Shown here piece after piece: positions 37,368 through 57,641 of a stretch of DNA of 64,000 nt. Location: NCBI RefSeq assembly GCF_016862975.1, contig NZ_BONZ01000039.1:1-64000 (forward strand). Direction: 5' to 3'. Source of the DNA: Rugosimonospora africana. GTDB lineage: Bacteria; Actinomycetota; Actinomycetes; Mycobacteriales; Micromonosporaceae. Positions within the stretch are counted from its first letter, which is position 1. Every line of letters begins with the position of its first letter. The position numbers and the translations under genes were made by a program. Below the pieces are notes generated by a model. That model was not told the origin of the DNA and made no database searches. It saw only the letters and a list, made by a program, of their open reading frames with translations.

Positions 37368-38117
37368 TCACAGTCCGAGGTAGATGCGCCGCACCCGGGG
37401 ATCGTGACGCAGCTCGTGCGCGCTGCCGGTCATCGCCACCTGGCCGTTCTCCATCACCAGGCAGTCGGTGGTCGCCTCGAAGGTGAGCTTCGCGTTCTGC
37501 TCCACCAGCAGCAGGCTCATCCCCTCCCCGCTCAACCGCTGCAGCACCGCGAGGATGTCCTCGACCAGCTTGGGCGACAAGCCCATCGAGGGCTCGTCGA
37601 GCAGCAGCAGCCGGGGACGGGACATCAGCGCCCGGCCGATGGCGAGCATCTGCTGCTGCCCGCCGGACAGCGCCCCGGCCAGCCGGGCGCGCATCTCGCC
37701 CAGTACCGGGAACAGCTCGTACACCTCGGCGAGGCTCTGCTGGCTGTGCCTGCGCCATCCCCGCGCGTACGCGCCGAGCATCAGGTTCTTCTCGACGCTC
37801 AAGCCGGCGAACACCTTACGTCCCTCGGGCACGTACCCGACGCCGTGCCGGACCATGTCCCGGGCCCGGACCCGGGTCAGGTCGATGTCGCCGAGGCGCA
37901 GCGCGTCCACGGCACGGGGCACCAACCCCATCAGCGCCTTGAGCGTGGAGGACTTTCCGGCGCCGTTCGCGCCGACGATGCCGACGGCCTGTCCGGCACC
38001 GACGGTGAAGTCGACCGACCGCACCGCGCAGACTCCTCCATAGTGGACGGTCAATCCGCGAACCGACAGAGTCAGTCCGGAGCCGGTAGTGGTCGGTGCG
38101 GGCGAGGTCTGCGTCAC
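37368..38117 (-). CDS. livF: Branched-chain-type ABC transporter ATPase LivF
   Basis: A 249-residue ATPase starting with GTG 38117, which overlaps the stop of the livM-livG fusion. Walker A is GANGAGKSS near residue 45, the Q-loop lies before GYVPEGRKVFAGLSVEKNL, signature LSGGQQQMLAIGRALM, Walker B RLLLLDEPSMGLSP and VEQN replaces the H-loop region as in LivF. The Y-V-P-E-G-R motif is diagnostic for LivF. It powers uptake with LivG, the LivH/LivM permeases and the lipoprotein encoded upstream. Confidence 0.94.
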   Translation of the reverse strand: MTQTSPAPTTTGSGLTLSVRGLTVHYGGVCAVRSVDFTVGAGQAVGIVGANGAGKSSTLKALMGLVPRAVDALRLGDIDLTRVRARDMVRHGVGYVPEGRKVFAGLSVEKNLMLGAYARGWRRHSQQSLAEVYELFPVLGEMRARLAGALSGGQQQMLAIGRALMSRPRLLLLDEPSMGLSPKLVEDILAVLQRLSGEGMSLLLVEQNAKLTFEATTDCLVMENGQVAMTGSAHELRHDPRVRRIYLGL

Positions 38118-39934
38118 TGGGCCACCTCCGTGGCGATCACCGGGGGAACGTCCTTGCTCATCGCCGAATCGCCCAGGTACGCCTCGATGACCCGCGGGGT
38201 TGCGGCCACCTCCGCCGGGCCGCCCTCGGCGATCACCTCGCCGCTGGCCAGCACGGTGATGCGCTCGCACAGCGACATCACCAGACCCATGTTGTGCTCG
38301 ATGATGACGACGGTCACTCCGCTGTCGCGGATGGATCGGACGATCTCGCCGAGCTGCCGTACCTCTTCGCCGTTGAGCCCGGCGGCCGGTTCGTCCAGCA
38401 GCAGGAGCCTGGGCCCGCTGACCATGGCCCGGGCGATTTCCACCCGGCGCTGGATGCCGTAGGGCAGCGATCGGGGCAGCGCGTCGGCGAAGGCGCTCAG
38501 CCCGAACTGGTCGAGCATGGCATCGGCCCGCGCGCGCAACGCCCGGTCCCGCCGCACCACGCCGACCTGCCACACCGCGTACCGCCAGATCCCGCGGGTA
38601 CGGCTGCGGTCGGCGGCGACCAGGACATTCTCCCGCACCGTCAGGTTGTTGAACAGCCGCAGATTTTGGAAGGTCCGGGCGAGGCCGGCGTGGGACAACT
38701 GGTAGGGTCGGCGGCCCCCGACCGGCGCGCCGCCAAGCCGGACTGTTCCACCGCTCGGCCGGTAGAGGCCGCTGATGACGTTGAACAGTGTGGTCTTGCC
38801 GGATCCGTTCGGGCCGACGATGCCGCGGATCTCACCGGCCCCGACCGACAGCGAGACCTCGCGCAGCGCCCACAGGCCGCGAAACCGCTTGCTGATCTGC
38901 TGGACCTCCAACAGCGGCCCCGGCCCCACCGGCGCGGACGCCTGCGGCGCGGCCGGGAACGGACGGAACGGTCCGAGCACGGCCGCGCTCGCACCCTCGC
39001 CCCGCCGTTTGCGCCAGCCCGAGCGCAGCCGCGCCGGCAGGCCGGCCAGCCCGGTCGGAGCGAACACCACGGCCAGCACGACTACGACGCCGTACCCCAG
39101 TTGGGCGTACGTCGACGCGTCACTCAGCGCCTCGCGCAGCAGGGACAGGGCCAGCGCCCCGACGACACAGCCGACCAAGCTCTGCCGGCCGCCGATGATG
39201 ACCATGGCGAGCAGCAGGAACATGTTTGTCATGCTGAACGTATCCGGGGACACGTACCGGATCAGCCCGGCGTACAGCACGCCGGCCAGACCGCCGTACA
39301 CACTGGCCAGGCCGAAGGCCGCCATCCGCAGCATCGGCACCTCGGCACCGACCGCGCCGGCGGCCAGCGAGTCGTCGCGCATCGCGCGCATGCGCCGGCC
39401 CAGCGGGGTACGCACGACGAACAGCCCGAAGGCCAGCGCGGCGGCGAACACAACCACCTCGACATACCAGTACAGGTAGTCGGAGGACAGGTCGACGCCG
39501 CCCAGCGGTGGTACCGGGATCCCGGAGATGCCCGACGCGCCACCGGCGAGGGCGGCGTTGGTGACCCAGTTGGTGAACGCGACCGCCAACCCCAGCGTCA
39601 CGATGCCCAGATAATGCGACTGCACGCGCAGTGCCGGGGTGCCGACCAGCAGGCCGATCACCACGGTCGCCACCAGCGACAGCAGCGCCGCCGGCCAGAA
39701 TCCGTACCCGTAATGGGTGGTGAGGATCGCCACGGCGTACGAGCCGACTCCGAAGAAGGCCACCTGCGCCAGGTTCACCTGACCCGCCACGCCCATCGCC
39801 AGGCCCAGCCCGATGGCCAGCACGGCGAACACCAGCGCCACGTCGGCCACGTGCATGGCGTACAGGTTCAGTCCGTACGGCAGCCCCCACGCGACGACGG
39901 CGAGCAGGGCGACCAGACCGATGCGGTACCTCAC
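38114..39934 (-). CDS. livM: LivM-LivG fusion: ABC permease joined to ATPase
   Basis: The 606-residue polypeptide combines two subunits. Residues 1-300 are the LivM permease (BPD_transp_2) with about nine helices and the loop GRRMRAMRDDSLAAGAVG. After a basic, Ala/Pro-rich linker (about 305-345), residues about 350-595 are the LivG ATPase. It has Walker A GPNGSGKTTLFN, the ARTFQNLRLFNNLTVREN Q-loop, LPYGIQRRVEIARAM signature region, Walker B LLLLDEPAAGLN and VIIEHNM. The start ATG 39934 overlaps the livH stop. Fusions of these two are seen in some actinobacteria. They import branched-chain amino acids or, often, aromatic or other carboxylic acids. Confidence 0.94.
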   Translation of the reverse strand: MRYRIGLVALLAVVAWGLPYGLNLYAMHVADVALVFAVLAIGLGLAMGVAGQVNLAQVAFFGVGSYAVAILTTHYGYGFWPAALLSLVATVVIGLLVGTPALRVQSHYLGIVTLGLAVAFTNWVTNAALAGGASGISGIPVPPLGGVDLSSDYLYWYVEVVVFAAALAFGLFVVRTPLGRRMRAMRDDSLAAGAVGAEVPMLRMAAFGLASVYGGLAGVLYAGLIRYVSPDTFSMTNMFLLLAMVIIGGRQSLVGCVVGALALSLLREALSDASTYAQLGYGVVVVLAVVFAPTGLAGLPARLRSGWRKRRGEGASAAVLGPFRPFPAAPQASAPVGPGPLLEVQQISKRFRGLWALREVSLSVGAGEIRGIVGPNGSGKTTLFNVISGLYRPSGGTVRLGGAPVGGRRPYQLSHAGLARTFQNLRLFNNLTVRENVLVAADRSRTRGIWRYAVWQVGVVRRDRALRARADAMLDQFGLSAFADALPRSLPYGIQRRVEIARAMVSGPRLLLLDEPAAGLNGEEVRQLGEIVRSIRDSGVTVVIIEHNMGLVMSLCERITVLASGEVIAEGGPAEVAATPRVIEAYLGDSAMSKDVPPVIATEVAQ

Positions 39935-40800
39935 GCGCGGTTCACCGTCCTCTCGCCGAACACACCGGTCGGGCGGACCATGATGATGACGGTGAACACG
40001 AGGAACGTCACCAGGTCCGAGTAGCCCTGGAAATGCCCGGCGCTGAACGAGTCGAGCACGCCGATGGCAAGGCCGCCCAGGATCGCGCCGGGGATGCTGC
40101 CGAAGCCGCCGAGGATCGCCGCGGCGAATCCCTTGATGCCCAGGGAGCCGCCCATCGAGGCGTTGACGTACAGCAGTGGGCCGACCAGGCCGCCGCCGAG
40201 CGCGGCGAGGCCGGCGCCGATGGAGAAGGACAGCGCGTTGCTGCGCCCGACGTGGATACCGACCGCGGTGGCGGCCTCGTAGTCCATCGCGACCGCCTGC
40301 ATGGCCGCACCCCGCTTGGTGCGTTGCAGGAAGAGCACCAGGGCGACCATCGCCAGTGCTGCGATGGCCAGCACGACGAGGTTGTAGGTGCGCACCCGGA
40401 TACCGAAGATGTCCAGCGGTGCCGCCGGGACCGGGGACGGCACCGCCCGGCCGGTCGCGCCCCAGATCAGGGTGGCGACCGCCTCCAGCACGATGCCGAA
40501 GCCGATCGTACCGATCAGCATCAGGTCGAAGTCCTTGTTCTCCAACGGGCGCAGCACCCGTTCGATGATGACCCCGATCAGCCCGGTCACGACGATGGCC
40601 GCGACGATGGCCAGGGCGAAAGGCAGCTTGGCGGACATGTAGAAGGTGGACGCGACGTACGCGCCGATCATGACAACGTCGCCGTGCGCGAAGTTGACCA
40701 GGCCCATGGTTCGGTATACGAGCGAAAAGCCCATGGCGACCAGCGCGTAGACCGCACCGAGGCTCAGCCCGCCGATGAGCGTCTGAAAGAAGACTTGCAT
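39931..40800 (-). CDS. livH: Branched-chain-type ABC permease LivH
   Basis: A permease of 289 residues with about eight helices: FFQTLIGGLSLGAVYALVAM at the N-terminus, the NFAHGDVVMIGAY motif near residue 37, the EAA-like cytoplasmic loop RGAAMQAVAMDYEAATAVGI near 180, and SIGAGLAALGGGLVGPLLY. This is the LivH/BraD family. It is cotranscribed with the other importer genes; a strong stem-loop lies between it and the substrate-binding protein gene. Confidence 0.94.
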   Translation of the reverse strand: MQVFFQTLIGGLSLGAVYALVAMGFSLVYRTMGLVNFAHGDVVMIGAYVASTFYMSAKLPFALAIVAAIVVTGLIGVIIERVLRPLENKDFDLMLIGTIGFGIVLEAVATLIWGATGRAVPSPVPAAPLDIFGIRVRTYNLVVLAIAALAMVALVLFLQRTKRGAAMQAVAMDYEAATAVGIHVGRSNALSFSIGAGLAALGGGLVGPLLYVNASMGGSLGIKGFAAAILGGFGSIPGAILGGLAIGVLDSFSAGHFQGYSDLVTFLVFTVIIMVRPTGVFGERTVNRA

Positions 40801-40843
40801 GGCTCCCCCTGCCGCGACGGCGCGACGGCGACGGTAACGGGTA

Positions 40844-40873
40844 CCCGGGCCGGCAGAACTGCGCCGGCCCGGG
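40844..40873. terminator. Stem-loop between binding-protein and permease genes
   Basis: CCCGGGCCGGC (40844-40854), loop AGAACTGC, GCCGGCCCGGG (40863-40873): perfect 11-bp stem in the 115-bp gap. In ABC operons such hairpins protect or partly terminate the upstream mRNA, raising binding-protein levels over permease levels. Confidence 0.65.
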
Positions 40874-40915
40874 AGGATGGCTGCGTCAGCTGGCCACGGC
40901 CAGCCGGCCGCCGGC

Positions 40916-42073
40916 TCAGCTGGCCGCGGCCAGCTTGCCGTTGCTGATGACGCCGATCGACGTGGCGAAGATGCCCACGCCGGTGCTGTCGAACGCGAAG
41001 CTGCCCAGCAGGCCGTTGTACTTCGTGGCCCGGATCGCGTCGGCCAGCTTCTTGCCGGTCGCCACGTTGCTGGTCTTCAACGCGGTCAGCACGATGCTCG
41101 TTCCGTCGTAGGCCTTCGCCCCGTGCAGCTCGGCGTCGTCACCGTACGCGGCCTTGTAGGCGGCGGCGAACGTGCGGGACGCGTCGCTGATGTCATTGCC
41201 CAGGTACGGCGAACTGACGATGGTGTTCTCGACGTTGGCCGCGCCGGCGGTCTCGGCGAACACCGGCGTGCCCTGCGGAGCGCTGCCGGCGAATGGCACG
41301 GTGATGCCCAGATCGCGGGCCTGCTTGACGATGAGCCCCGCCTCTACCTCTTCGGAGCCGATGAAGACCAGCTGCGGGTTCTTCTGCCGGATCGTGGTCA
41401 GCGCGGCGCTGAAGTCCTTCTGGTCGGTCGTGACCACCTGGTCGGTCAACGGGGTGACGCCGCGCTTGGACAGCGAGGCGAGGAACGCGTCATGCTCGCC
41501 CTTGCCGTACCCACCGTTGTTAGTGATCATGGCGATGCTCTTGATGCCCTTGGTGTCGACAACGTACTTCGCCAGCGTCTCGTCGTAGGTGGTGCTGGTC
41601 GGCCCGTTGAGGAACAGGAACGGGCTGCCCAGCTTCACCATCGAGTCGGCCTGGCCGGAGGTGATGTTCGGGATCTGCTCCTGTTGCAGGATCGGAGCCA
41701 TCGCCTGGGTCACCGCGCTCTCGGAGGTGCCGATCATCGCGATGTACCCGTCACTGGCGATCTTCCTGGCCAGATTGGTACCCACCGTCGGGTCGCCCTG
41801 GTCGTCGAACACGTCCAGCTGTATCTTGCGGCCGTTGATGCCGCCCTTGGCGTTCCACTGGTCGACGGCGAGCTTCGCGCCGTTGGACTCCCAGTGGCCG
41901 AGCGAGCTGAGCTGGCCGCTCTGGGCGTCGACGACCGCTATCTTGATCGGGCCCTTGCCGCTTCCGGACGATGACGTGCTGGACTTGCCGGGGGCGCTGC
42001 ACGCGGTGGCGAGGATGGTGGTGAGGACGGCGGCGCCGATCAGGGCGCCGCGGATGTGCCGTGGGGTGTGCAT
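40916..42073 (-). CDS. livK: Lipoprotein substrate-binding protein, LivK/Leu-Ile-Val-binding family
   Basis: The 385-residue precursor starts at ATG 42073. A lipoprotein signal ends in LATACSAPG (Cys near residue 25), followed by a Ser/Gly linker. The periplasmic-binding fold (Peripla_BP_6) shows I-K-I-A-V-V-D-A-Q-S-G, WNAKGGINGRKIQLDVFDDQ, IGTSESAVTQAM, DFSAALTTIRQKNPQLVFIG and HGAKAYDGTSIVL. Ligands for this family include branched-chain amino acids, amides, aromatic acids and dicarboxylates. The catabolic enzyme genes immediately upstream on the same strand suggest an organic acid rather than leucine. GAGGTG precedes the start. Confidence 0.92.
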   Translation of the reverse strand: MHTPRHIRGALIGAAVLTTILATACSAPGKSSTSSSGSGKGPIKIAVVDAQSGQLSSLGHWESNGAKLAVDQWNAKGGINGRKIQLDVFDDQGDPTVGTNLARKIASDGYIAMIGTSESAVTQAMAPILQQEQIPNITSGQADSMVKLGSPFLFLNGPTSTTYDETLAKYVVDTKGIKSIAMITNNGGYGKGEHDAFLASLSKRGVTPLTDQVVTTDQKDFSAALTTIRQKNPQLVFIGSEEVEAGLIVKQARDLGITVPFAGSAPQGTPVFAETAGAANVENTIVSSPYLGNDISDASRTFAAAYKAAYGDDAELHGAKAYDGTSIVLTALKTSNVATGKKLADAIRATKYNGLLGSFAFDSTGVGIFATSIGVISNGKLAAAS

Positions 42074-42119
42074 CACGATCACCTCGAATCAGGGTATGGG
42101 TATGTCGTGTTGCGGTGGT

Positions 42120-43910
42120 TCACTCGAAGACACCGTGGTAGATGTCCTTGATGTTCCAGTGACCCGGAGTGGGTACCGGCTCGTTGACCATCGGTACGTC
42201 CAGCACCGCCGGGCGGCGACGCGAAATCGCGGTACGCAGCGCGCTGGCCAGATCCTCGGCCCGTTCGATGAGGTAGCCGTCGGCCCCGCAGGCGCGGCCG
42301 AGCGCCGCGAAGTCGGGGCTGTACGGACGGCCCTGCGGATCCACGAACTCGCAGCCGTAGCTGGCGCCGAAGTTGGCGGCCTGCAGGTCGGCGATCGTCC
42401 CGTGGGCCCGGTTGTTCATCACCAGGAAGATGACCGGCAGGCCCTGCTCCACCGCCATCGGCACGGCCGGCAGCTGCGCGCTCATCCCGCCGTCGCCGAC
42501 CAGGGCGACGACCACCCGGTCCGGCTCGGCGATCTGCACGCCCAGCGCGGCGGCGGGCCCGAAGCCCATCGTGGAGGCGCCACCCGGGGTGATGAAACGG
42601 CCCTGCGCCGGCAGCGGATAGCACTGCGCCACGCCATTCTTGTTCCAGCCCACATCGGTGACGAGCACGGCGTCCGGTGGCAGGACGTCGCGCACGTCGG
42701 CCAGGATGCGCTCCGGGCGCAACGGGAAGTCCGCACTGCGGCCCCGTTCGCGGCTGCCCTCGAACAGTCCGGTGCGCGCCGCGTGGATCTGGTCGCGCAG
42801 CGCCTGGCGCACCACCGGCTGCGGCGCCCGCTCGCGTACCGCCGCGTCGATGGCCCGCACCGCGCGGGTCGCGTCGGCCACCGCGCCGATCTCCACCGGG
42901 TAGTTGCGGCCGATCTCGGCCGGGTCGATGTCGATCTGGATCAGCCGGGTCGGCGGGAACTGCCAGGTGTAGCGCGGATTCCAGGAACTCGCGTCGGTCT
43001 CGGCGAACCGGGTCGCCACGGCCAGCACGAGGTCGGCCTCCAGCGCGTAGGTGTTGGTCACCTCCAGTCCCCAGAACCCGGTCATGCCCAGCACCAGCCG
43101 ATGCTCATCGGGCAGCGTCCCCTTGGCCATCAACGAGTGCGCCACCGGCAGATCGAGGTGCTCTACCAGGGACGCGAGCGCGGCCCGGCCCTCCGCGCCG
43201 TGCAGCCCACCGCCGACGTACACCAGCGGGCGCTGCGCGCCGATCAGCGCCCGGGCGATGTCCGCCGCCGTGGAGGCCGGCAGGTCCGGCGCCGCGCTGT
43301 GCGCCGCCAGCGGGTACGCCGAGGCGAGGCGGGCCGGTACCGTCCGGGAGAACAGGTCCATGGGGACGTTGAGCAGCACCGCTCCCGGGCGGCCGGAGGT
43401 CGCCGTCCAGAACGCCCGCTCGGTGAACCGCGGCAGGTCCTCCACCCGGTGCACGTGCCAGGCCCGCTTCACGAACGGCCGGTAGATCGCGGTCTGGTCG
43501 GCGTCGGCGTGGAGGTTGACCTCCTGGTGCGGGTGGCGCCCGTAGAAGTAGGACGGGATGTCACCGGCGATGGCGATCAGCGGCACCGAGTCCAGCGCGG
43601 CGGTGGCCACGCCGGTGACCGCGTTCATCATGCCCGGCCCGACGTGCAGCAGTACGACCCCGGGCTTGCCGGAGGCTCGGGCGTACCCGTCCGCGGCGTG
43701 CGCCGCCGCCTGCTCGTGCCGGGCGATGACGAACCGGATGGTGCTGCGCCCCATCGCGTCCAGCAACGCGATGTTGGTGTGCCCGCAGGTGCCGAACACG
43801 TACTCGACCCCGTAGGACTCCAGCTGGGCGACCAGCGCCTCGGCGGCCGAGCGCTCACCGGCCCCGGCCGCTCCCGTGACCGTTGCCGCCGGTGTTGCGT
43901 CGACTGTCAT
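42120..43910 (-). CDS. Thiamine-diphosphate-dependent enzyme (acetolactate-synthase-like superfamily)
   Basis: The protein has 596 residues in three domains: ThDP pyrimidine-binding (about 20-190), central (205-340) and ThDP pyrophosphate-binding (370-565). The catalytic Glu is in R-H-E-Q-A-A-A-H-A-A-D-G-Y-A-R (Glu66). The Mg/ThDP motif is GDGGMSAQ followed by an NN pair about 25 residues on. Family members decarboxylate 2-oxoacids, join or split 2-hydroxyacyl compounds, or act on CoA thioesters (oxalyl-CoA decarboxylase, 2-hydroxyacyl-CoA lyase). The exact reaction is not determinable. It overlaps the zinc dehydrogenase gene by ATGA and belongs to the aldehyde/alcohol dehydrogenase operon, so formation or cleavage of an aldehyde is plausible. 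Confidence 0.88.
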   Translation of the reverse strand: MTVDATPAATVTGAAGAGERSAAEALVAQLESYGVEYVFGTCGHTNIALLDAMGRSTIRFVIARHEQAAAHAADGYARASGKPGVVLLHVGPGMMNAVTGVATAALDSVPLIAIAGDIPSYFYGRHPHQEVNLHADADQTAIYRPFVKRAWHVHRVEDLPRFTERAFWTATSGRPGAVLLNVPMDLFSRTVPARLASAYPLAAHSAAPDLPASTAADIARALIGAQRPLVYVGGGLHGAEGRAALASLVEHLDLPVAHSLMAKGTLPDEHRLVLGMTGFWGLEVTNTYALEADLVLAVATRFAETDASSWNPRYTWQFPPTRLIQIDIDPAEIGRNYPVEIGAVADATRAVRAIDAAVRERAPQPVVRQALRDQIHAARTGLFEGSRERGRSADFPLRPERILADVRDVLPPDAVLVTDVGWNKNGVAQCYPLPAQGRFITPGGASTMGFGPAAALGVQIAEPDRVVVALVGDGGMSAQLPAVPMAVEQGLPVIFLVMNNRAHGTIADLQAANFGASYGCEFVDPQGRPYSPDFAALGRACGADGYLIERAEDLASALRTAISRRRPAVLDVPMVNEPVPTPGHWNIKDIYHGVFE

Positions 43911-45037
43911 CGTGGCTCCTCCTCTACGTGCGCGGTTTCAAACGGCTGCGCTGCCGCCATCGACGGGTGCGCTGGCGCCGCAGCCGGCCGCGCTGCCGCC
44001 GAGGGCGATTGCGCTGTGACCGTGGACGATTGCTGCGGGGGCGCCGGCGGTTGCTCCGAGCGCGGCAGCGCGATCCAGGACTTGCCGGCCACCTGGCCCG
44101 CCTCGCGCAGTGCCCGGGCCGCCTCCGCCAGCGGGTACCGCGCCCCCACGACGCTGCCCGGCCGCGCCGGAGCCTGCGACAACGCCCGGATCGTGCTCGC
44201 GAAGTCGTCCGGGTGGTCGTAGATCAGGCAGCCGCGCAGGGTCAACCGGCGCTGCACGATGGGGAAGCTGGCCAGTCGGGCGGGTACGCTGCTCTGCCCG
44301 ATCAGCGCGACGCAGCCGTCCGGCGCGGCACGGAACACGGCCAGCTCCAGCGCCTCCGGCGCCCCGGATGTCTCGATGACCACCGGGAACATCGCCGCGT
44401 CGTCCAGCTCGGCCAGGTCGCGGGCACCCAGCCCGCGGGCCAGTCGCGCCCGGCCCGGGTTCGGGTCCGTCACGTACGGGACGGCTCCGGCCGCCAGCAG
44501 GGTCTGGCAGACCAGCAGGCCCTGCGCTCCGGCGCCGACGACCAGGCACCGTACGCCGGCCCGGGCTCCGCTGCGGACCACCGCGGAACGGGCTACCGCC
44601 ATGGGCTCCACGCACACCAGATCCTCGTCCGGCCAGCTCGCCGGTACCGGCCAGGCAAAACGCGCGGGCACCGCGAGCCGCTCGACCAGCGCGCCCGGTT
44701 CGGAGATGCCCACAGCGCGCCGCCGCGGGCAGGTCGCGGTCGCCCCGGCGAGGCAGGAAGGGCAGTCCAGGCACGGGTAGTTCGGCTCGACGACGACCCG
44801 CTGCCCGACCTCCCGGCCAGCGACCCGGTCGCCGACCGCGACGATGTCCCCGACCGCCTCGTGCCCCAGCACCCAGGGCAGCGTGGGCACCGCCCGCTTG
44901 CCGGTGAACACGGCCAGGTCCGAGCCGCACAGGCCGACCGCGCGTACGGCGACGATCACCTCGTCCGGGCCGCAGGACGGCTCGGGCCAGTCGTAGCGCA
45001 CGTCGACGGCACCCGGCTCGCGCAGCACCGCGGCCAT
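43907..45037 (-). CDS. Zinc-dependent medium-chain alcohol dehydrogenase
   Basis: A 376-residue MDR enzyme. The catalytic zinc site is GLCGSDLAVF (Cys) with GHEAVGDIV. The four-Cys structural zinc lobe is PCLDCPSCLAGATATC. The NAD(P)-binding motif is VVGAGAQGLLVCQTLLAAG with an acidic residue (TDPN) that favours NAD. The core ends about residue 325; a 50-residue Ala/Pro/Gln tail is unusual. It starts one base into the stop of the aldehyde dehydrogenase gene (TGATG) and overlaps the ThDP gene, so the three enzymes are made together. It resembles threonine/sorbitol-type dehydrogenases; the substrate is unknown. Confidence 0.92.
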   Translation of the reverse strand: MAAVLREPGAVDVRYDWPEPSCGPDEVIVAVRAVGLCGSDLAVFTGKRAVPTLPWVLGHEAVGDIVAVGDRVAGREVGQRVVVEPNYPCLDCPSCLAGATATCPRRRAVGISEPGALVERLAVPARFAWPVPASWPDEDLVCVEPMAVARSAVVRSGARAGVRCLVVGAGAQGLLVCQTLLAAGAVPYVTDPNPGRARLARGLGARDLAELDDAAMFPVVIETSGAPEALELAVFRAAPDGCVALIGQSSVPARLASFPIVQRRLTLRGCLIYDHPDDFASTIRALSQAPARPGSVVGARYPLAEAARALREAGQVAGKSWIALPRSEQPPAPPQQSSTVTAQSPSAAARPAAAPAHPSMAAAQPFETAHVEEEPR

Positions 45038-46518
45038 CACGACTGGGTCCCCCAGATCGACATGCCGCGCAGCATCAGCGTCTTGACGACGGTGTAGTCC
45101 TCGATCATCGGGCGCGGCGACTCTCTGCCGAATCCGGAGTCCTTCACCCCGCCGAACGGCACGTGGTCGAGGCGGAAGTTGGACGAGCCATTGACCACCA
45201 GACCGCCGACCTGCAGGTCGCGCCACGCGGTGAGGATGCGGGCGATGTCCCGGGTGAACAGTCCGGCCTGCAGGCCGTAGTCGCTGGCGTTGCAGGCGGC
45301 CACCACGTCGGCGAAGTCGTCGTAGGGCAGCACCGCGACCAGTGCGCCGAATACCTCCTCGGTGACCACCCTGGCGTCGGCCGGCGGATGCGCGACGATC
45401 GTCGGCGCGACGGTCGCGCCGTCCCGGGTACCGCCGATAGCCACGGTCGCTCCGGCCGCCGCAGCTTGCTCGGTCCACGTGACCACCCGGTCGGCGGCCT
45501 GCTCGTCGACCATCGACCCGACGTCGGTGGCGGGGTCCAGCGGGTCGCCGACCTTCAGCGCGGCGACCGCGTCGGTGAACCGGGCCAGGAACTCCTCGAA
45601 CCGCGACCGGTGCACGTAGACCCGCTGCACGGAGATGCAGCTCTGCCCGGAGTTGCTGTACCCGGTGCGGGCGCAGATCCCAGCCGCCTCGGCGACATCG
45701 GCGTCCTCGCACACGATGGTGGCGGCGTTGCCGCCCAGTTCGAGGACGAGACGCTTCGCGCCGGCCGCGCGAGCCACCGCCGCCCCGGTCGCCGCGCTGC
45801 CGGTAAAGCTGATCACGCTGACTTCGCGCGCCGCACACAGCGCCGCGCCGACCTCGCCACCGCCGTGCAGCAGTTGTACCGACTCGACCGGCGCGCCCGC
45901 GGCCAGCAGCAGAGCCACCACGGCCGCCGAGGTCGCCGGCGCCTGTGGTGGCGCCTTGACGATGGTGGTGTTCCCGGCGGCGAAGGACGCGCCGAGCTTG
46001 TGTGCCAACAGATTCGCCGGAGCGTTGAACGGCGTGATGGCAAGCGCCACTCCGGCCGGGGCGCGGTAGGTCAGGGCCGTGTTGCCCACTCCCCTGGACC
46101 AGCCGGCGACCGGCAGCACCTCTCCACCGATCTGGCGGGCCTCGGCGGCGCAGACGTGCAGGGTGTCGGCCACCCGGTCCAGTTCGCCGCGGCCGTCCTT
46201 GAGCGGCTTGCCGAGTTCCCGCGCAATCATGCGCGCGAAGTCGTCGCGGTACTCCACCGCCAGGTGGGCCGCGCGGTCCAGAATTTCGGCCCGGGCCGCA
46301 GGCGCCAGCGCGGCGATGGCGGGAGCCGCGCGGCGCGCGTACGACGCGACCGCGGACACGTCCGCCGGTTGCGCCTGCGGAGCCCGACTGACCACCCCAC
46401 GCAGGTACGGTCCGAACCGTTCGGCAGTGGTTCCCCGATTGGACCAGGCGCCGGCGATCAAAGCAGGTGCCTGTGCCACTGCCCCGTCAGCGGAAGACCT
46501 GAGGATGGCATCGAGCAT
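45037..46518 (-). CDS. NAD(P)-dependent aldehyde dehydrogenase
   Basis: The 493-residue ALDH starts at ATG 46518, with TTGGAGGAA seven bases upstream. Conserved features in order: APAGVALAITPFNAP with the cofactor Lys segment VKAPPQAPATS; the F-T-G-S-x-x-T-G turn; general base Glu in LELGGNAATIV; nucleophile Cys in S-G-Q-S-C-I-S; and the C-terminal EVFGALVAVLPY, VPFGGVKDSGFGRE. Sequence flavour is like succinate-semialdehyde/lactaldehyde-type ALDHs. It is the first gene of a leftward operon (ALDH, zinc ADH, ThDP enzyme, importer). It is divergent from the IclR gene, with a GGWCCGC-type dyad in between. Confidence 0.94.
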   Translation of the reverse strand: MLDAILRSSADGAVAQAPALIAGAWSNRGTTAERFGPYLRGVVSRAPQAQPADVSAVASYARRAAPAIAALAPAARAEILDRAAHLAVEYRDDFARMIARELGKPLKDGRGELDRVADTLHVCAAEARQIGGEVLPVAGWSRGVGNTALTYRAPAGVALAITPFNAPANLLAHKLGASFAAGNTTIVKAPPQAPATSAAVVALLLAAGAPVESVQLLHGGGEVGAALCAAREVSVISFTGSAATGAAVARAAGAKRLVLELGGNAATIVCEDADVAEAAGICARTGYSNSGQSCISVQRVYVHRSRFEEFLARFTDAVAALKVGDPLDPATDVGSMVDEQAADRVVTWTEQAAAAGATVAIGGTRDGATVAPTIVAHPPADARVVTEEVFGALVAVLPYDDFADVVAACNASDYGLQAGLFTRDIARILTAWRDLQVGGLVVNGSSNFRLDHVPFGGVKDSGFGRESPRPMIEDYTVVKTLMLRGMSIWGTQS

Positions 46519-46734: not shown

Positions 46735-47544
46735 ATGCCCGCGAGCAACCACAGCAAGCGCACCGAGGCTGTTGCCGCCCCCGCCGTCGACACCGGGGAG
46801 TCGCAGGGAGTGCGCAGTGTCCAGCGGGCATTGGACATCCTGTCCCTGCTGACCGAGGAGCGACCCCTGGTCGCCATCCGGGACATCGTCGAGGCGACCG
46901 GGCTGGCGAAGACGACGGTCATCCGTCTGGTGCAGACCCTGGAGCAGAGCGGCCTGCTGTGGGCCACCTCCAGCGGGTACATGGCGGGGCCGGGGCTGTG
47001 GCGCTGGGCCCACCTGGCCCGGCGCAGCTGGGAACTTCCGCCCGAGACCCAGCGCCTGATGCGGGAACTGGCCGCCCGCCAGCGGGAGACGGTCAACCTG
47101 TACGTGGCGCGTGACATCTACCGGGTCTGCATCGCCCAGCAGGAGAGCCCGCAACCGCTGCGGCACGTCGTGCACATCGGCGACGAACTGCCGATGTGGG
47201 GCGGCGCGTCGGCCAAGGTGCTGCTGCGCGACGCGTCGACGAGCCTGCTTGCCCGGGTGGCCCGCAGCTCGCCGTACGGTGAAGGGCACCTCAAGCGGCT
47301 GCAGGAGTGGATCGACGAGGCGGCGCAGAACGGCTTCGCGGTCAGCCATGGCGAGCGCGAGGACGGGCTGACGGCGGTCGCGGTACCCATCACAGGCCGG
47401 TCCGGCGCCGTGGTCGCCGCACTGTCGCTCAGCGGGCCCACCATGCGCTTTCCCGACCAGCGCATCGCCGAGTTCGCCGCCGACCTCGCCAGCGTCGCGA
47501 AACACATGTCCGACCGAGGGTTCGACCATCCCCTCGGCTCCTGA
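46735..47544 (+). CDS. IclR-family transcriptional regulator
   Basis: A 269-residue regulator from ATG 46735, which has AGAGGAA six bases upstream. Residues about 20-80 are the IclR winged helix (VQRALDILSLLTEERPLVAIRDI with ATGLAKTTVIRLVQTLEQ). Residues about 95-260 are the effector-binding GAF-like domain, with RETVNLYVARD, H-I-G-D-E-L-P-M-W-G-G-A-S-A-K-V-L and GLTAVAVPITGRSGAVVAALSLSGP. It is divergent from the ALDH operon and followed by the CoA-transferase and lyase genes. IclR proteins usually sense a catabolic intermediate of the pathway they flank. It is the leading candidate to bind the GGTCCGC dyads found through this region. Confidence 0.92.
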   Translation: MPASNHSKRTEAVAAPAVDTGESQGVRSVQRALDILSLLTEERPLVAIRDIVEATGLAKTTVIRLVQTLEQSGLLWATSSGYMAGPGLWRWAHLARRSWELPPETQRLMRELAARQRETVNLYVARDIYRVCIAQQESPQPLRHVVHIGDELPMWGGASAKVLLRDASTSLLARVARSSPYGEGHLKRLQEWIDEAAQNGFAVSHGEREDGLTAVAVPITGRSGAVVAALSLSGPTMRFPDQRIAEFAADLASVAKHMSDRGFDHPLGS

Positions 47545-47601: not shown

Positions 47602-48834
47602 ATGCACGACCGTCCGCTCACCGGCATCCGTGTACTGGATCTGACCAACGTTCTCGCCGGGCCCTACTGCAGCTACCAGCTGATGCTGCTCGGCGCCGAG
47701 GTAATCAAGATCGAGTTGCCCGGGCACGGTGACCTGGCCCGGCACCTCGGTCCCGACCCGGAACTGAACGACGCCGGCATCGGCGCGTCGTTCCTGGCGC
47801 AGAACGCCGGGAAGATGTCCGTCGAGCTGGACCTCAAGGATGCCGGCGACCGGGCCGCCTTCGAGAGGCTGCTCGGCGACGCGGACGTACTGCTGGAGAA
47901 CTTCCGGGCGGGGGTACTGGCACGCATCGGCTACGACTGGCCCCGGCTGCGCACGCTCAATCCGGCGCTGGTCTACTGCGCCATCTCCGGCTTCGGCCAG
48001 ACCGGGCCGATGAACCAGGCGCCCGCCTACGACCAGATCATCCAGGGCCTGTCCGGGATGATGAGTGTCACCGGTACCCCGGAGACCGCGCCGCTGCGGG
48101 TCGGTTTCCCGGTCAGCGACAGCGTCGGGGGATTGTCCGCCGCGCTGGCCATCACCGCCGCGTTGCACGCCCGGCATCGGACCGGCGAGGGTTGTTTCCT
48201 GGACGTGTCGATGCTCGAGGCGTCGATGTCGGCGATGGGCTGGGCGATCTCCAACTATCTCGTCAGCGGCGTGCCCCCGGAGCCCATGGGCGACCAGAAC
48301 GCGACCGCCGCCCCGTCCGGTACATTCCACGCCGGCGACGGCCCGCTCAACATCGCGGCCAACCGGCAGGAGCAGTTCGAGACCCTGTGCCGGCTGATCG
48401 ACCGGCTGGACCTGCTCACCGACAGCCGGTTCGCCGACCGGGAGGCACGCAAGCGCCACCGCGACGAACTCAACCACGAACTCAACGTGGCACTGGGCGG
48501 CCGTACCGCGCTGGAGTGGGAACTGTTGCTGTCCCCCGCCGGAGTACCCGCCGCACGGATCCTGACCGTGCCCCAGGCCGTGGAGTCCGGCCAACTGGCC
48601 CACCGGGGCTTCTTCACCGACCTGCCGTTCCCCGACTCGTCGGGCCGGGTACTGCGCGTCAGCGGCAGCGGCGTGCTGTTCAACGGGACCCCACTCAAAC
48701 CGACCACCACGCCACCCCTGCTCGGCGAGCACAACGCGCTGGTGCCCGAGCTCACCGAGCGCTGGCGAAGCGCTGGGTACCCCGCCGACTCGCGGCTCGC
48801 GAGCCTGACCCCAGCCGAGGAGCGCAACGCATGA
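47602..48834 (+). CDS. Class III CoA-transferase (CaiB/BaiF family)
   Basis: The 410-residue enzyme has the family N-terminus (LTGIRVLDLTNVLAGPYCSYQL, GAEVIKIE), then N-A-G-K-M-S-V-E-L-D-L-K, the LLENFRAGVLARIGYD block and the catalytic Asp region PAYDQIIQGLSGMMS. The rest includes D-V-S-M-L-E and the C-terminal H-R-G-F-F and LLGEHN. It moves CoA between carboxylic acids (for example from succinyl-CoA). The gene overlaps the next one by ATGA. That partner is a citrate-synthase-like lyase, so the pair probably activates a hydroxy-polycarboxylic acid to its CoA ester and splits it. Confidence 0.93.
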   Translation: MHDRPLTGIRVLDLTNVLAGPYCSYQLMLLGAEVIKIELPGHGDLARHLGPDPELNDAGIGASFLAQNAGKMSVELDLKDAGDRAAFERLLGDADVLLENFRAGVLARIGYDWPRLRTLNPALVYCAISGFGQTGPMNQAPAYDQIIQGLSGMMSVTGTPETAPLRVGFPVSDSVGGLSAALAITAALHARHRTGEGCFLDVSMLEASMSAMGWAISNYLVSGVPPEPMGDQNATAAPSGTFHAGDGPLNIAANRQEQFETLCRLIDRLDLLTDSRFADREARKRHRDELNHELNVALGGRTALEWELLLSPAGVPAARILTVPQAVESGQLAHRGFFTDLPFPDSSGRVLRVSGSGVLFNGTPLKPTTTPPLLGEHNALVPELTERWRSAGYPADSRLASLTPAEERNA

Positions 48835-49691
48835 CCGCCTCACCGCCCAGCCCTGAAGCGTCCGCGGCGCCGGCTGTCCGCACCCTGGGCGAGACCACCA
48901 CCGCCGACGTGGCCGACTGGTGGGCCACCGGCGTGTCCCGGATGGCACCCGGCGAGCTCGAACTGCGCGGCCGGCCGGTTCAGGAGCTGATCGGCACCAC
49001 CGGATTCGCGGCAACCATCTGGCTGATGTTGCGCGGCGAGCTGCCCAGCCCGCAACAGGCGCAGCTGCTGGAGGCCGCCCTCGTCGCCTCCGTCGATCAC
49101 GGTCCACAGGCACCCTCCATCGCGGTGGCACGAATGGCCATCACGTGCGGCGTCGGCCTGAACAACGCCATGGCGACCGGCGTCAACCTGCTCGGCGACG
49201 TGCATGGCGGAGCCGGCCAGCAGTGCGTCGAACTGCTCACCGAAATTCGCGACCGCGGCGCCGAGAACGGCGACATCGATGTGGCCGCCACCGAGGTCGT
49301 GGCACGGTGGCGCGCCCAGTCCCGGTACCTACCGGGCTTCGGACACCGGTTCCACCCGGTCGATCCGCGCCGGCAACCCCTGCTGAGCCTGGTGGAGACC
49401 GCCGTCGCCGCCGGGACAGTGCCCGGCGAACACCTGCGGGCCGCGTACGCCATCGAGAACCTCCTCGCCGGGCGCAGCCGCCCGGTACCGATGAACATCG
49501 ACGGCGCGACGGCGGTCATCTACGCCGAACTCGGCTTCCCGGCCCCGCTCGCTCGCGGGCTGTTCGTCCTGAGCAGAAGCGTCGGCATCCTCGCCCACGC
49601 CTGGGAGGAGAGCCAGCAGGGCCGGCGCAACAAAGGCCCCATGCCACCGGCCATCCTGCCCAGTTACGTCCCACCCGCTGCCGCTGGCTGA
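48831..49691 (+). CDS. Citrate-synthase-like protein, probable citryl-CoA-lyase type
   Basis: A protein of 286 residues, much shorter than citrate synthase (about 430) but the usual size of citryl-CoA-lyase-like proteins. It keeps the catalytic elements: His in GDVHGGAGQQ, LPGFGHRFHPVDPR, and the Asp in NIDGATAVIYAELGFP. The chain ends after E-E-S-Q-Q-G-R-R-N-K-G-P-M-P-P. The preceding CoA-transferase and the translational overlap support cleavage of an acyl-CoA in which the CoA ester is made by the partner rather than by ATP. The substrate could be citrate or an analogue; the reaction direction is unproven. Confidence 0.85.
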   Translation: MTASPPSPEASAAPAVRTLGETTTADVADWWATGVSRMAPGELELRGRPVQELIGTTGFAATIWLMLRGELPSPQQAQLLEAALVASVDHGPQAPSIAVARMAITCGVGLNNAMATGVNLLGDVHGGAGQQCVELLTEIRDRGAENGDIDVAATEVVARWRAQSRYLPGFGHRFHPVDPRRQPLLSLVETAVAAGTVPGEHLRAAYAIENLLAGRSRPVPMNIDGATAVIYAELGFPAPLARGLFVLSRSVGILAHAWEESQQGRRNKGPMPPAILPSYVPPAAAG

Positions 49692-49934: not shown

Positions 49935-50612
49935 GTGACAACAGCTGATCGGATCGCTCAATCAGCGTTCAGCGACGCGCCGGCCAAGCAACGGGACGCG
50001 GACCGCACCCGCGCGCAGATACTCGACGTGGCCACCGCCGACTTCGCGAATCTGGGCTACGACGGTGCCCGCGTGGACGATATCGCCGCGAAGACGAGCA
50101 CCACCAAACGCATGATCTACTACTACTTCGGCGGCAAGGAAGGCCTTTACATCGCCGTGCTCGAACGCGCCTACGCGGGCATCCGGGCGCTGGAGGCGGG
50201 TCTGGACGTCGAGGGCCTGGAGCCGGCCTCGGCCATCCGCCGGCTGGCCGAACTGACCTTCGACCATCACGACAGCCATCCCGACTTCGTCCGGTTGGTC
50301 GCGATCGAAAACATTCATCGAGGCGAGCACCTGCGCCGCTCCACGGCGCTGGCCGGACTCGCGACGCCCGCGCTCGACGTGCTGAGCACGATCCTTGAGC
50401 GCGGGCGCAAGGCCGGCGTCTTCCGCGAGGATGTCGACAGTCTCGATGTGCACATGGTGATCAGCGCGTACTGCATCTTCCGGACCGCGAACCGGTACAC
50501 CTTCGAGGCGATCTTCAACCGGGACCTCCTCGATCCCCGGCGCCGCGCACACCAGCGCCGGCTGCTCGGCGACCTGGTACTCGAGTTCCTGACCGCACCG
50601 GCCTCCGCCTGA
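49935..50612 (+). CDS. TetR-family transcriptional regulator
   Basis: The 225-residue regulator starts with GTG 49935, preceded by AGGAG. The DNA-binding part (residues 24-70) reads RAQILDVATADFANLGYDGA, DDIAAKTSTTKRMIYYYFGGKEGLY, the classical TetR helix-turn-helix. The ligand domain follows, with H-P-D-F-V-R-L-V-A-I-E-N-I-H-R-G-E-H typical of actinobacterial regulators of aromatic or quinate/shikimate catabolism. A GTTCGTT palindrome lies upstream. It ends before a strong terminator facing the secreted Asp-box gene. A role in controlling the dehydroshikimate-dehydratase-like gene at 52743 is inferred. Confidence 0.92.
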   Translation: MTTADRIAQSAFSDAPAKQRDADRTRAQILDVATADFANLGYDGARVDDIAAKTSTTKRMIYYYFGGKEGLYIAVLERAYAGIRALEAGLDVEGLEPASAIRRLAELTFDHHDSHPDFVRLVAIENIHRGEHLRRSTALAGLATPALDVLSTILERGRKAGVFREDVDSLDVHMVISAYCIFRTANRYTFEAIFNRDLLDPRRRAHQRRLLGDLVLEFLTAPASA

Positions 50613-52553: not shown

Positions 52554-52742
52554 GTATAAGTAACTATCTAGTTCGTTCGTAGACGCGCCTGGAGTTGTGC
52601 AGGTTCCTCTGAGCCGGGCCGCATCCTCGCCGACCCGATCGAATCGGGACCGGTCCCGGCTGTTCTCCGGTCTCAGGTCCGAACCTGACCGGGTGCTGCG
52701 CAACGTCGACGCGTGTCCGAGAGCACGAAGGGCGGGATGTTC

Positions 52743-55520
52743 ATGCGCACCACTGACGTCATGACCGCTGCCGATTCCGGCGAGACGCCGGCGAATCCGC
52801 GCTTGGGCATCGCGACCGTCTGTCTGTCGGGCACGCTCGAAGACAAGCTCGCCGCGGCATCCGCGGCTCGGTTCCAGACCGTAGAGATCTTCGAGAACGA
52901 CCTCATCGCATCGCCGTGGCCGCCGCGGCAGGTCCGGGAGGAATGCGCACGCAGGGGCTTGACGGTTGACGTCTACCAGCCGTTCCGCGACTTCGAAGCG
53001 GTACCGCCCGACCTGTTCGCGGCCAACATGCGCAGGGCTGAGCGGACGTTCGACGTGTTGGAACAACTAGGCGCCAGCACGATGCTGGTCACCTCGTCGG
53101 TCTCCCCCGATGCCGTGGACGACGACGACCTCGCGGCCGAGCAGCTGCATGCGCTAGCCAGCAGCGCCGAGCGCCGCGGCCTGCGAATCGCCTATGAGCC
53201 CCTGGCATGGGGCAGGTTCGTCAGGACCTGCGCACATGCCTGGCGCATCGTGCGACACGCCAACCACCCCGCACTCGGTCTGTGTCTGGACAGTTTCCAC
53301 CTTCTGTCCGGTGGGGACGATCTGGCGAGTATCGGTGTGGTGCCCGGGTCAAAGGTGTTTCACGTGCAGTTGGCCGACGCGCCGCGCCTGAACATGGACC
53401 TGGTCGAGTGGAGCCGACATCACCGGTTGTTCCCCGGGCTGGGCTGCTTCCCACTCACAGAGTTCGTGAGCCGCGTGCTGTCCACCGGCTATGTCGGGCC
53501 CTTGTCGCTCGAGGTCTTCAACGACGTCTATCGTCAGGCCGACCCGCGACTGGCGGCAATCGACGGGATGCGTTCGCTTCTGGCTCTACAGGAGGCGGTC
53601 AGCGTCTCAGGCCCACCGGCCGTGCGGGAGCGCCTGCAGACGGTCGGCTTGCCGCCGGCACCTCGACTCGGCAATCACGCATTCACCGAGCTCGCCGTGG
53701 ACGATCTGTCCGGCCCGGTCGTGGCGCGTGCGTTGAGCGCGCTCGGCTTCGTCCACACGGGCCAACATCCGTCAAAGCCGGTACAGCTATGGCAACAGGG
53801 CCAGGCCCGAGTCCTCCTGAACTTCGCACCACAGACGACCGTCGCTCCAGGTACGGCCGCAATCTGCGCTCTCGGTGTGGAAAGCGCCGACCCGGCCACG
53901 TCCGCCCAGCGGGCAGAAGCACTGCTCGCACCTGTATTGCCGCGCACCCGCCAGTCGGAGGAAGCCGACCTCACGTCCATCGCCGCGCCGGACGGGCTGG
54001 CGGTGTTCCTGCTGCGCGGCGGAGCCGAGCCCAACACCTGGTTGAAAGACTTCCGGCCCACCGGCACGAGTCCCCGCCCCGACGGCCTGGTGACGAAGAC
54101 GGACCACATCTCCCTCACCCAAACCGTCGACGACTTCGACGAAACGGCCCTGTTCTACCGGACGGTTCTCGGCCTCCAGATGGACGAGACCACCGAGATC
54201 GCCGCACCGTTCGGTCTTGTCCGAAGCAGAGCTTCCGCCGACCCATCCGGTGATTTACGCATCACCTTCAACACCGCTCCGCTGCGCCGCGGGGACTGGG
54301 CACCCGCGGTCCCCAGCCCCCAGAACGTCACGTTCACGACGGACGACGCCATAGCCAGCGCCAGGGCGATGCGCTCGCTCGGCGCGCCGGTCCTGAAAAT
54401 CCCCGACAACTACTACGTTGAGCTCGACGCGCGCCTGGCCCTGCCACCGCAACGCCTGGCCGCGCTGCGGGAGTACTCCATCCTCTACGACCGGGACGAG
54501 CACGGCGAGTTCTTGCACTTCTACACGGAGATGCTCGGATCTCGCGTGTTCTTCGAAGTCGTGCAACGCGTCGGCGGATACACCGGCGTGGGCGACCCCA
54601 ACAGCGCTCCGGTCCGTATGGCCGCTCATCGTCAGCGACGACTCATCAACCTCCGGAACGCGCCTGCGCCCGTAGGAGAACTTCGGCATGACTATTCACT
54701 GGCCCACCTCACCGCGCTGAGCCTGTCACCGCCGCAACTCGTCGACGCCGCGGCCGATGCCGGCTACCGGTACGTTGGGCTACGGCTGACCCGGGTAACG
54801 CCCCAGGAACCCCACTACCCGTTGGCCACCGACCCAGCGCTGATGCGCACAACCAAGGTGCATCTAGCAGCCACCGGGATCGAGGTGCTCGACGTGGAAC
54901 TAGCCCGGATCAGCCCACAAGACGATCCACGCGACTTCCTCCGGTTCTTGGACGCAGCCGCGGAGCTAGGGGCGCGCCACGTCATCACCCAACTGCCCGA
55001 CCCTGACCGGGTACGGAAAATTGATCGATTCGCGCAACTGTGCGAGATGGCTTGGCCACTCGGACTCACCATCGACCTGGAGTTCCCGTCCTGGACGGAG
55101 ACACCCGACCTGGGTGAGGCCACCCGTGTCCTTCGCGCGGCGCAGCAGCCCAACGCGGGCATCCTGGTCGACGTGCTCCACTTCGCCCGCTCGGGATCGA
55201 GCGTGGCCGACCTCCGCCAGCTACCCAGCGAGTGGTTTCACTTCGCCCACGTGTGCGACGCCCCCGCCGGGGTGCCATCCACCAATGAGGGTCTGATCTA
55301 CACGGCACGGTTCGAACGACTCTTTCCCGGAGAGGGCGGTATCGACGTTCATGGCGTCCTGGACGCACTGCCTGCCGGAATCCCATACGCGCTGGAGATC
55401 CCTCGTGCGATGCTTATCGCCCAGGTTGGCGCGAGGGAACATGCTCGATTGGCGATAACTGCCGCCCGCCGCTTCCTCGATCACGCGCCCAACTCGTCAT
55501 CGACGACCGCTGCGGCCTAG
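52743..55520 (+). CDS. Three-domain protein: dehydroshikimate-dehydratase-like TIM barrel, HPPD-like VOC domain, second TIM barrel
   Basis: The protein is 925 residues from ATG 52743 (GGGCGGG six bases upstream; GTG 52713 is an alternative). Residues about 20-275 are a xylose-isomerase-like barrel of the AsbF/QsuB 3-dehydroshikimate dehydratase type. It has a Glu in RIAYEPLAWGRF, Asp and His in LCLDSFHLL, HVQLADAP and the final Glu in SLEVFND. Residues about 300-600 are a HPPD-like VOC region with metal His in KTDHISLTQ and Glu in FFEVVQRVGG, but N replaces the usual second His (P-Q-N-V-T-F). Residues about 640-910 are another xylose-isomerase-like barrel with its own ligands (TIDLEFPSW, LVDVLHFARSG, HVCDAP, YALEIP). 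Two-domain forms are known; the extra barrel is unusual. Product likely protocatechuate. Confidence 0.85.
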   Translation: MRTTDVMTAADSGETPANPRLGIATVCLSGTLEDKLAAASAARFQTVEIFENDLIASPWPPRQVREECARRGLTVDVYQPFRDFEAVPPDLFAANMRRAERTFDVLEQLGASTMLVTSSVSPDAVDDDDLAAEQLHALASSAERRGLRIAYEPLAWGRFVRTCAHAWRIVRHANHPALGLCLDSFHLLSGGDDLASIGVVPGSKVFHVQLADAPRLNMDLVEWSRHHRLFPGLGCFPLTEFVSRVLSTGYVGPLSLEVFNDVYRQADPRLAAIDGMRSLLALQEAVSVSGPPAVRERLQTVGLPPAPRLGNHAFTELAVDDLSGPVVARALSALGFVHTGQHPSKPVQLWQQGQARVLLNFAPQTTVAPGTAAICALGVESADPATSAQRAEALLAPVLPRTRQSEEADLTSIAAPDGLAVFLLRGGAEPNTWLKDFRPTGTSPRPDGLVTKTDHISLTQTVDDFDETALFYRTVLGLQMDETTEIAAPFGLVRSRASADPSGDLRITFNTAPLRRGDWAPAVPSPQNVTFTTDDAIASARAMRSLGAPVLKIPDNYYVELDARLALPPQRLAALREYSILYDRDEHGEFLHFYTEMLGSRVFFEVVQRVGGYTGVGDPNSAPVRMAAHRQRRLINLRNAPAPVGELRHDYSLAHLTALSLSPPQLVDAAADAGYRYVGLRLTRVTPQEPHYPLATDPALMRTTKVHLAATGIEVLDVELARISPQDDPRDFLRFLDAAAELGARHVITQLPDPDRVRKIDRFAQLCEMAWPLGLTIDLEFPSWTETPDLGEATRVLRAAQQPNAGILVDVLHFARSGSSVADLRQLPSEWFHFAHVCDAPAGVPSTNEGLIYTARFERLFPGEGGIDVHGVLDALPAGIPYALEIPRAMLIAQVGAREHARLAITAARRFLDHAPNSSSTTAAA

Positions 55521-57550: not shown

Positions 57551-57641
57551 GTGATCGAGCCTCGTCGCGTACCCGGTGGTCGACATCCGTGGAAACCACG
57601 TAGCCTCCACGGGTCCGCAGCACGTAGGTATCCTCAGAGCG

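Follow-up and report, generated by a model that had tools for sequence, protein, structure and literature searches.

Bacteria are usually described as breaking down quinate and shikimate, two plentiful acids of plants, by way of protocatechuate and an oxygenase. Two proteins associated with this route, QuiC1 of Pseudomonas putida (structure 5hmq) and QsuB of Corynebacterium glutamicum, have about 630 residues and consist of a dehydroshikimate dehydratase barrel and a domain resembling 4-hydroxyphenylpyruvate dioxygenase (HPPD), with no further domain. The DNA considered here, called the window, is a stretch of 64,000 nucleotides from Rugosimonospora africana (contig NZ_BONZ01000039.1), and one of its genes encodes a protein of 925 residues that is like QuiC1 and QsuB in its first barrel (barrel A), its HPPD-like domain (domain B) and its dehydratase active-site residues. 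It differs from them in a second barrel (barrel C) with its own set of metal ligands.

I propose, at a probability of roughly 0.55, that this fusion is a bifunctional enzyme of hydroaromatic acid breakdown, in which barrel C serves as the entry to a second, oxygen-independent branch that runs through an enzyme dependent on thiamine diphosphate (ThDP) and through homocitryl-coenzyme A (homocitryl-CoA). A broader claim goes with this proposal and is about an even bet: barrel C, as a fused domain or as a protein of its own, would mark an oxygen-independent pathway, so far undescribed, that takes quinate and shikimate via homocitryl-CoA to acetyl-CoA plus 2-oxoglutarate, is common to aerobic actinomycetes, Rhodoferax, Bacillota and one sulfate reducer, is built like the inositol pathway and ends in homocitrate synthesis run in reverse.

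A conserved three-domain protein

The original prediction, made from the sequence of the window, described a two-domain protein of the QuiC/QsuB type to which a second complete barrel had been added, and this description holds. The QuiC1 structure 5hmq aligns with the whole of residues 21-633 (613 residues, E 1e-134), a Pfam scan gives two matches to AP_endonuc_2 (PF01261), separated by glyoxalase domains of the HPPD type, and the second match carries the ligands E780, D810, H836 and E885. An AlphaFold model of the full-length protein (mean predicted local distance difference test score, pLDDT, 87; predicted template modelling score, pTM, 0.66) matches 5hmq in a Foldseek comparison with a TM-score on the target (TMt) of 0.89. 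The protein nonetheless departs from QuiC1 and QsuB in the second metal ligand of domain B, which is Asn, and in its score against the NCBIfam model for QuiC, NF042435 (521.7 bits, under the equivalog cut-off of 1200). A search of the window's own genome found no second QuiC.

The fusion is genuine. A frame error or an assembly join of two genes near residue 640, for which nothing speaks except the unusual length of the frame, may be dismissed as a practical impossibility. A scan of contigs from one genome per species, with barrel C as query, gave 70 loci, and a single frame encodes all three domains at 54 loci, that of the window among them. The genera concerned are Actinoplanes, Asanoa, Catellatospora, Jiangella, Kribbella, Nonomuraea, Amycolatopsis, Actinophytocola, Agromyces, Microbacterium and others, all actinobacterial. 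Within the window's own family, barrel C is present in 46 of 355 genomes and fused in nearly all of them, and 44 of the 47 strong matches sit in open frames of 849-1142 amino acids. The search for this architecture in other genomes that had been called for thus found it to be widespread, but neither an assigned function nor an NCBIfam or Pfam model specific to barrel C was found. The joint of the fusion falls where free-standing barrel-C proteins start (MKHxYSLAHLTALSL). Barrel C is encoded by a separate gene in four phyla outside Actinobacteria, the gene being found in Rhodoferax and other Proteobacteria, Desulfosediminicola, Aneurinibacillus, Domibacillus and one metagenome-assembled genome (MAG) of Acidobacteria.

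To judge from the alignments, barrel C is the conserved core of the fusion, while A and B drift. Six of its residues (E780, D810, H813, H836, R856 and R859) are kept in 68 of 68 barrel-C sequences, and E885 and R681 are each kept in all save one truncated sequence; across genera, identity to the window protein is 71-85% for barrel C, 54-80% for barrel A and 56-72% for domain B. The second PF01261 stretch, the four metal ligands and the fold place barrel C among the xylose-isomerase-like TIM barrels. Its top fold match is IolI (1i60), which shares with it an aligned His as third ligand and a DxxH motif; other isomerases and the dehydratase 5hmq follow, with IolE (3cny) and AsbF lower. Barrel C alone matched no curated IolE or IolI model at E 1e-5, and matched QuiC solely and weakly (E 4e-8).

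Barrel A of the window retains R82, E152, D183, H186, Q209, S224, R228 and E257, the set of dehydratase active-site residues listed for QuiC1 and QsuB (PMC7442255), and is predicted to be a dehydroshikimate dehydratase that converts 3-dehydroshikimate to protocatechuate. The set is partly lost in several species (loci L024, L035, L041).

Domain B probably does not act as a standard dioxygenase in the window protein, in keeping with the original suggestion that the middle domain may be structural. The His-His-Glu metal site of HPPD is represented by H455, N528 and E605, and the HPPD model TIGR01263 gives 80.9 bits as against a cut-off of 277. Asn at the second metal position had been correctly noted for the window, but it does not define the fused family, being particular to the window genome: among 53 other fused proteins the position holds His in 36, Leu in 9 and Tyr in 4. 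The Glu ligand is replaced by Ala in 18 of the same 53, and the metal site, as these substitutions have it, is eroding differently in different lineages. The C-terminal domain of QsuB showed no activity on protocatechuate and has been proposed to aid oligomerisation (PMC7442255). Given this inactivity and the drift of the ligands, it is reasonable to regard domain B as mainly structural in the window lineage.

A different arrangement is found in two Rhodoferax MAGs (L152:17115-19901 and L154:12489-15534), where barrel A and the HPPD-like domain are encoded separately by adjoining genes, with a PcaB-like gene (3-carboxymuconate cycloisomerase) beside them. No intradiol dioxygenase (PF00775) was found in these two genomes, and the Rhodoferax HPPD-like protein could be a ring-cleaving enzyme for protocatechuate.

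Genes that accompany barrel C

The most constant partner of barrel C is a ThDP enzyme of the acetolactate synthase superfamily: of 71 loci from Actinobacteria, Proteobacteria, Desulfobacterota and Bacillota, 57 have its gene no more than about 10 kb away to one side or the other. Also recurrent in the 71 loci are genes for a citryl-CoA-lyase-like enzyme (38), a pyrroloquinoline quinone (PQQ) dehydrogenase (35), an aldehyde dehydrogenase (ALDH; 31), a CaiB-type CoA-transferase (27), a divergent aldehyde dehydrogenase here called ALD4 (22), quinate/shikimate dehydrogenase (19), AroD (7) and an enzyme like 3-hydroxy-3-methylglutaryl-CoA (HMG-CoA) lyase (4). Transporters of the tripartite ATP-independent periplasmic (TRAP) or branched-chain type recur as well. 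The same neighbouring enzymes are found whether barrel C is fused or free. A query with PcaH from the window's own genome found no protocatechuate dioxygenase in the barrel-C loci.

The partnership extends beyond proximity. In the 355 genomes of the window's family, an ortholog of the ThDP enzyme occurs in 45 of the 46 genomes with barrel C, as against 7 of the 309 others (both genes in 45 genomes; barrel C without the ThDP gene in one, whose assembly is fragmented; the ThDP gene without barrel C in 7; and neither gene in 302; by Fisher's test, p 2e-48, uncorrected for shared descent), and the co-occurrence persists when the genes are far apart, as in genome G062, where about 600 kb lie between them. 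As a control, two-domain QuiC genes were considered in genomes lacking barrel C: they adjoin a TetR gene and, in nearly all cases, quinate/shikimate dehydrogenase, and never the ThDP module. The module does adjoin a two-domain QuiC at G048:C61 and G060:C111 (L137, L138), where a different contig carries the fused gene.

Several neighbors point to hydroaromatic acids. The quinate/shikimate dehydrogenase (NF009201, 377 bits against a cut-off of 235) and the type I dehydroquinate dehydratase AroD (TIGR01093, 185 bits against 139) both exceed the cut-offs of their curated models. The order of the Rhodoferax operon is ThDP-barrelC-ALD4-AroD; locus L074 combines AroD, barrel C, the HMG-CoA-lyase-like gene, ALD4, the ThDP gene and quinate/shikimate dehydrogenase; and in two further Rhodoferax genomes (L153, L154) quinate/shikimate dehydrogenase is followed directly by the HMG-CoA-lyase-like gene on the contig that carries barrel C. 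In Amycolatopsis, a two-domain QuiC adjoins the barrel-C cluster.

Two activation modules and two lyases occur, and within each pair one takes the place of the other. ALD4, whose closest solved relatives are CoA-acylating (8cei, an acetylating succinate-semialdehyde dehydrogenase, 5j78 and AdhE, ahead of the hydrolytic ALDHs), is never found at the same locus as CaiB, from which it appears that a CoA ester is made from an aldehyde either by one acylating enzyme or in two steps by ALDH and CoA-transferase. The citryl-CoA-lyase-like and HMG-CoA-lyase-like enzymes, which are not homologous, likewise never occur together. Both lyase families cleave a beta-hydroxy tertiary acyl-CoA to acetyl-CoA and a keto compound. 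These two exclusions indicate that the route probably proceeds from an aldehyde to an acyl-CoA and then to a retro-Claisen/aldol cleavage.

The possible fate of the products is suggested by the sulfate reducer Desulfosediminicola flagellatus (L156), in which a single strand carries barrel C, ALD4, the ThDP gene, a transporter gene, three subunits resembling 2-oxoglutarate:ferredoxin oxidoreductase, SucC, SucD, a TRAP uptake system (DctPQM) and a quinate/shikimate-type dehydrogenase, with a divergent HMG-CoA-lyase-like gene adjoining the block. Curated cut-offs are exceeded by SucC, SucD, the alpha subunit of the oxidoreductase and the HMG-CoA-lyase-like protein; for the beta and gamma subunits and for the dehydrogenase, the models for which they are named give the top score, but one that falls short of the cut-off. 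Neither a PF00775 intradiol dioxygenase nor QuiC was found in the genomes of Desulfosediminicola, Domibacillus, Aneurinibacillus or Rhodoferax, the last being MAGs that may be incomplete; extradiol enzymes were not searched.

The features of the window are collected in Table 1. The citryl-CoA-lyase-like enzyme scores 423.5 bits against NF004864 (cut-off 261). The Zn-dependent alcohol dehydrogenase, a relative of which belongs to the Domibacillus cluster (L088), is a possible quinate-oxidising enzyme in the window. A BNR/sialidase-like secreted protein (50695-52140, minus strand) lies between the TetR gene and the fused gene, outside the conserved cluster. A large LuxR/AAA regulator (57576-60377, plus strand) and a PhzF-like protein (61872-62759, minus strand) lie downstream and are unrelated to the subject of this study.

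Table 1. Features of the window, with position and strand
Feature	Position	Strand	Remarks
Branched-chain-amino-acid-type ABC (ATP-binding cassette) uptake system	37368..42082	-	Binding protein, two permease open reading frames, ATPases
ThDP enzyme, acetolactate synthase superfamily	42120..43910	-	596 amino acids; conserved partner of barrel C
Zn-dependent alcohol dehydrogenase	43907..45037	-	Overlaps genes on both sides
NAD-type ALDH	45037..46518	-	Overlaps Zn-dependent alcohol dehydrogenase gene
IclR-type regulator	46735..47544	+	
CaiB-type (class III) CoA-transferase	47602..48834	+	
Citryl-CoA-lyase-like enzyme	48831..49691	+	Citrate synthase domain; NF004864; 4-base overlap with CaiB gene
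TetR regulator	49935..50612	+	Found beside QuiC genes elsewhere too
Three-domain fusion protein	52743..55520	+	925 amino acids; single open frame; GTG start at 52713 a possible alternative
Barrel A, QuiC/QsuB-type dehydroshikimate dehydratase barrel	52800..53612	+	5hmq alignment; dehydratase residues intact
Domain B, HPPD-like	53658..54650	+	H455, N528 (codon 54324-54326), E605; 5hmq alignment, Pfam
Barrel C, second xylose-isomerase-like barrel	54690..55487	+	Ligands E780, D810, H836, E885; invariant H813, R681, R856, R859

A proposed route from 3-dehydroquinate and its alternatives

I infer the substrate, each intermediate and the product of the barrel-C route from the set of genes. Barrel C would dehydrate 3-dehydroquinate, with abstraction of the C4 proton and loss of the C5 hydroxyl, to give 1-hydroxy-3,4-dioxocyclohexane-1-carboxylate, which would be the reaction of barrel A performed on a saturated substrate. 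The same kind of dehydration is carried out in inositol breakdown by IolE, inosose dehydratase. The ThDP enzyme would then hydrolyse the C3-C4 bond of the dione, yielding a C7 aldehyde-diacid, just as IolD and cyclohexane-1,2-dione hydrolase use ThDP for the hydrolytic cleavage of rings. Oxidation of the aldehyde carbon to a CoA ester, by ALDH and CaiB in the window or by a CoA-acylating ALDH elsewhere, would give homocitryl-CoA, and either lyase would split this into acetyl-CoA and 2-oxoglutarate. By formula, addition of water to the C7 hydroxy-dione and a single oxidation lead to homocitrate, and the route balances without O2. The original prediction was that the additional barrel could carry out a step before or after that of the dehydratase; that it performs another step is probable, but the neighbors point to a separate ring-opening route starting from 3-dehydroquinate.

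Its closest fold being that of an isomerase, barrel C could be an isomerase or epimerase like IolI. Ahead of the ThDP step it would then act on 3-dehydroquinate or on some keto-cyclitol acid akin to it, shifting the ketone or inverting a hydroxyl, with the later route the same or leading to other products. The His ligand and DxxH motif shared with IolI agree with this, and the gene neighborhood is equally compatible. I nevertheless consider it unlikely, because a ring-opened product that keeps its C5 hydroxyl gives no homocitryl-CoA, and both the lyases and the 2-oxoglutarate genes of the sulfate reducer then lose their rationale. Distinctly less credible is the idea that barrel C duplicates the dehydroshikimate dehydratase, or helps to boost protocatechuate formation, and that the ThDP module is an unrelated neighbor. 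The weak similarity to QuiC and the dehydratase fold are in its favor, but in Desulfosediminicola, Domibacillus and Rhodoferax barrel C occurs where neither QuiC nor a PF00775 dioxygenase was found, and it keeps company with the ThDP enzyme even at a distance. It is also rather improbable that the pathway serves some other cyclitol or sugar acid and that the quinate/shikimate genes are neighbors in a shared regulon and not the input. The argument for it is that many barrel-C loci lack quinate/shikimate dehydrogenase within 10 kb and that seven genomes of the window's family (L142-L148) have the ThDP gene without barrel C, accompanied by ALDH, CaiB and lyase genes where enough sequence is available and, in the six with enough sequence, by PQQ dehydrogenase and a ThuA-like (PF06283) protein, the latter present at 18 barrel-C loci as well. 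It must contend with AroD inside the Rhodoferax operon, the fusion to QuiC in Actinobacteria and the quinate/shikimate dehydrogenases in the blocks of L156 and L074.

Dehydration of 3-dehydroquinate by barrel C remains my preferred account, and further observations weigh against it. The seven genomes just mentioned indicate that the module can be fed otherwise. Dehydroshikimate may be the substrate of barrel C, though it is less fitting: the lyase step requires a tertiary hydroxyl, and dehydroshikimate has none. The ThDP enzyme of the window resembles cyclohexane-1,2-dione hydrolase (2pgn, E 7e-46), but acetolactate synthases and BbmA score higher. The Desulfosediminicola KorABC and SucCD genes could belong to general metabolism and merely be placed nearby. 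The window genome has pcaGH-like genes, its dioxygenases lying on other contigs, so the aromatic branch is probably alive there also. Finally, the two-domain QuiC-like proteins that adjoin free-standing barrel C at L074:8409-10304 and L090:1946-3841 have altered barrel-A ligands (Asp to Asn, Gln to His, and the substrate Arg to Cys) and are probably not dehydroshikimate dehydratases.

Relation to known pathways

The pathway is apparently undescribed, going by the open-access literature searched (from which subscription journals are largely absent): no description was found there of a homocitrate or ThDP route for quinate, a homocitryl-CoA lyase or a three-domain QuiC, and nothing useful about BbmA and CsmA, to which the ThDP enzyme is related. 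If the proposal is true, it would explain the use of quinate and shikimate by bacteria without the oxygenases of the protocatechuate route, assign a role to the conserved family of barrels and to a number of genes labeled acetolactate synthase-like or citryl-CoA lyase-like, predict a catabolic source of homocitrate, and set the fused protein at the branch point of an aromatic and a non-aromatic route.

Of the known systems, myo-inositol catabolism by IolE/IolI and IolD would be a close analogy, in that it combines a metal-dependent barrel of the isomerase fold, an acetolactate-synthase-type ThDP enzyme and an ALDH. The barrel-C system is unlike it in having hydroaromatic acid genes as input and a lyase of the citryl-CoA or HMG-CoA type at the end, and in matching none of its family models. 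With cyclohexane-1,2-dione hydrolase the ThDP enzyme shares its superfamily, and the proposed route would have it cleave its substrate in the same hydrolytic manner. The protocatechuate/beta-ketoadipate route starts, like the proposed branch, from quinate or shikimate by way of 3-dehydroquinate and 3-dehydroshikimate, but the branch would leave it at 3-dehydroquinate and would form no aromatic ring and call for no oxygenase.

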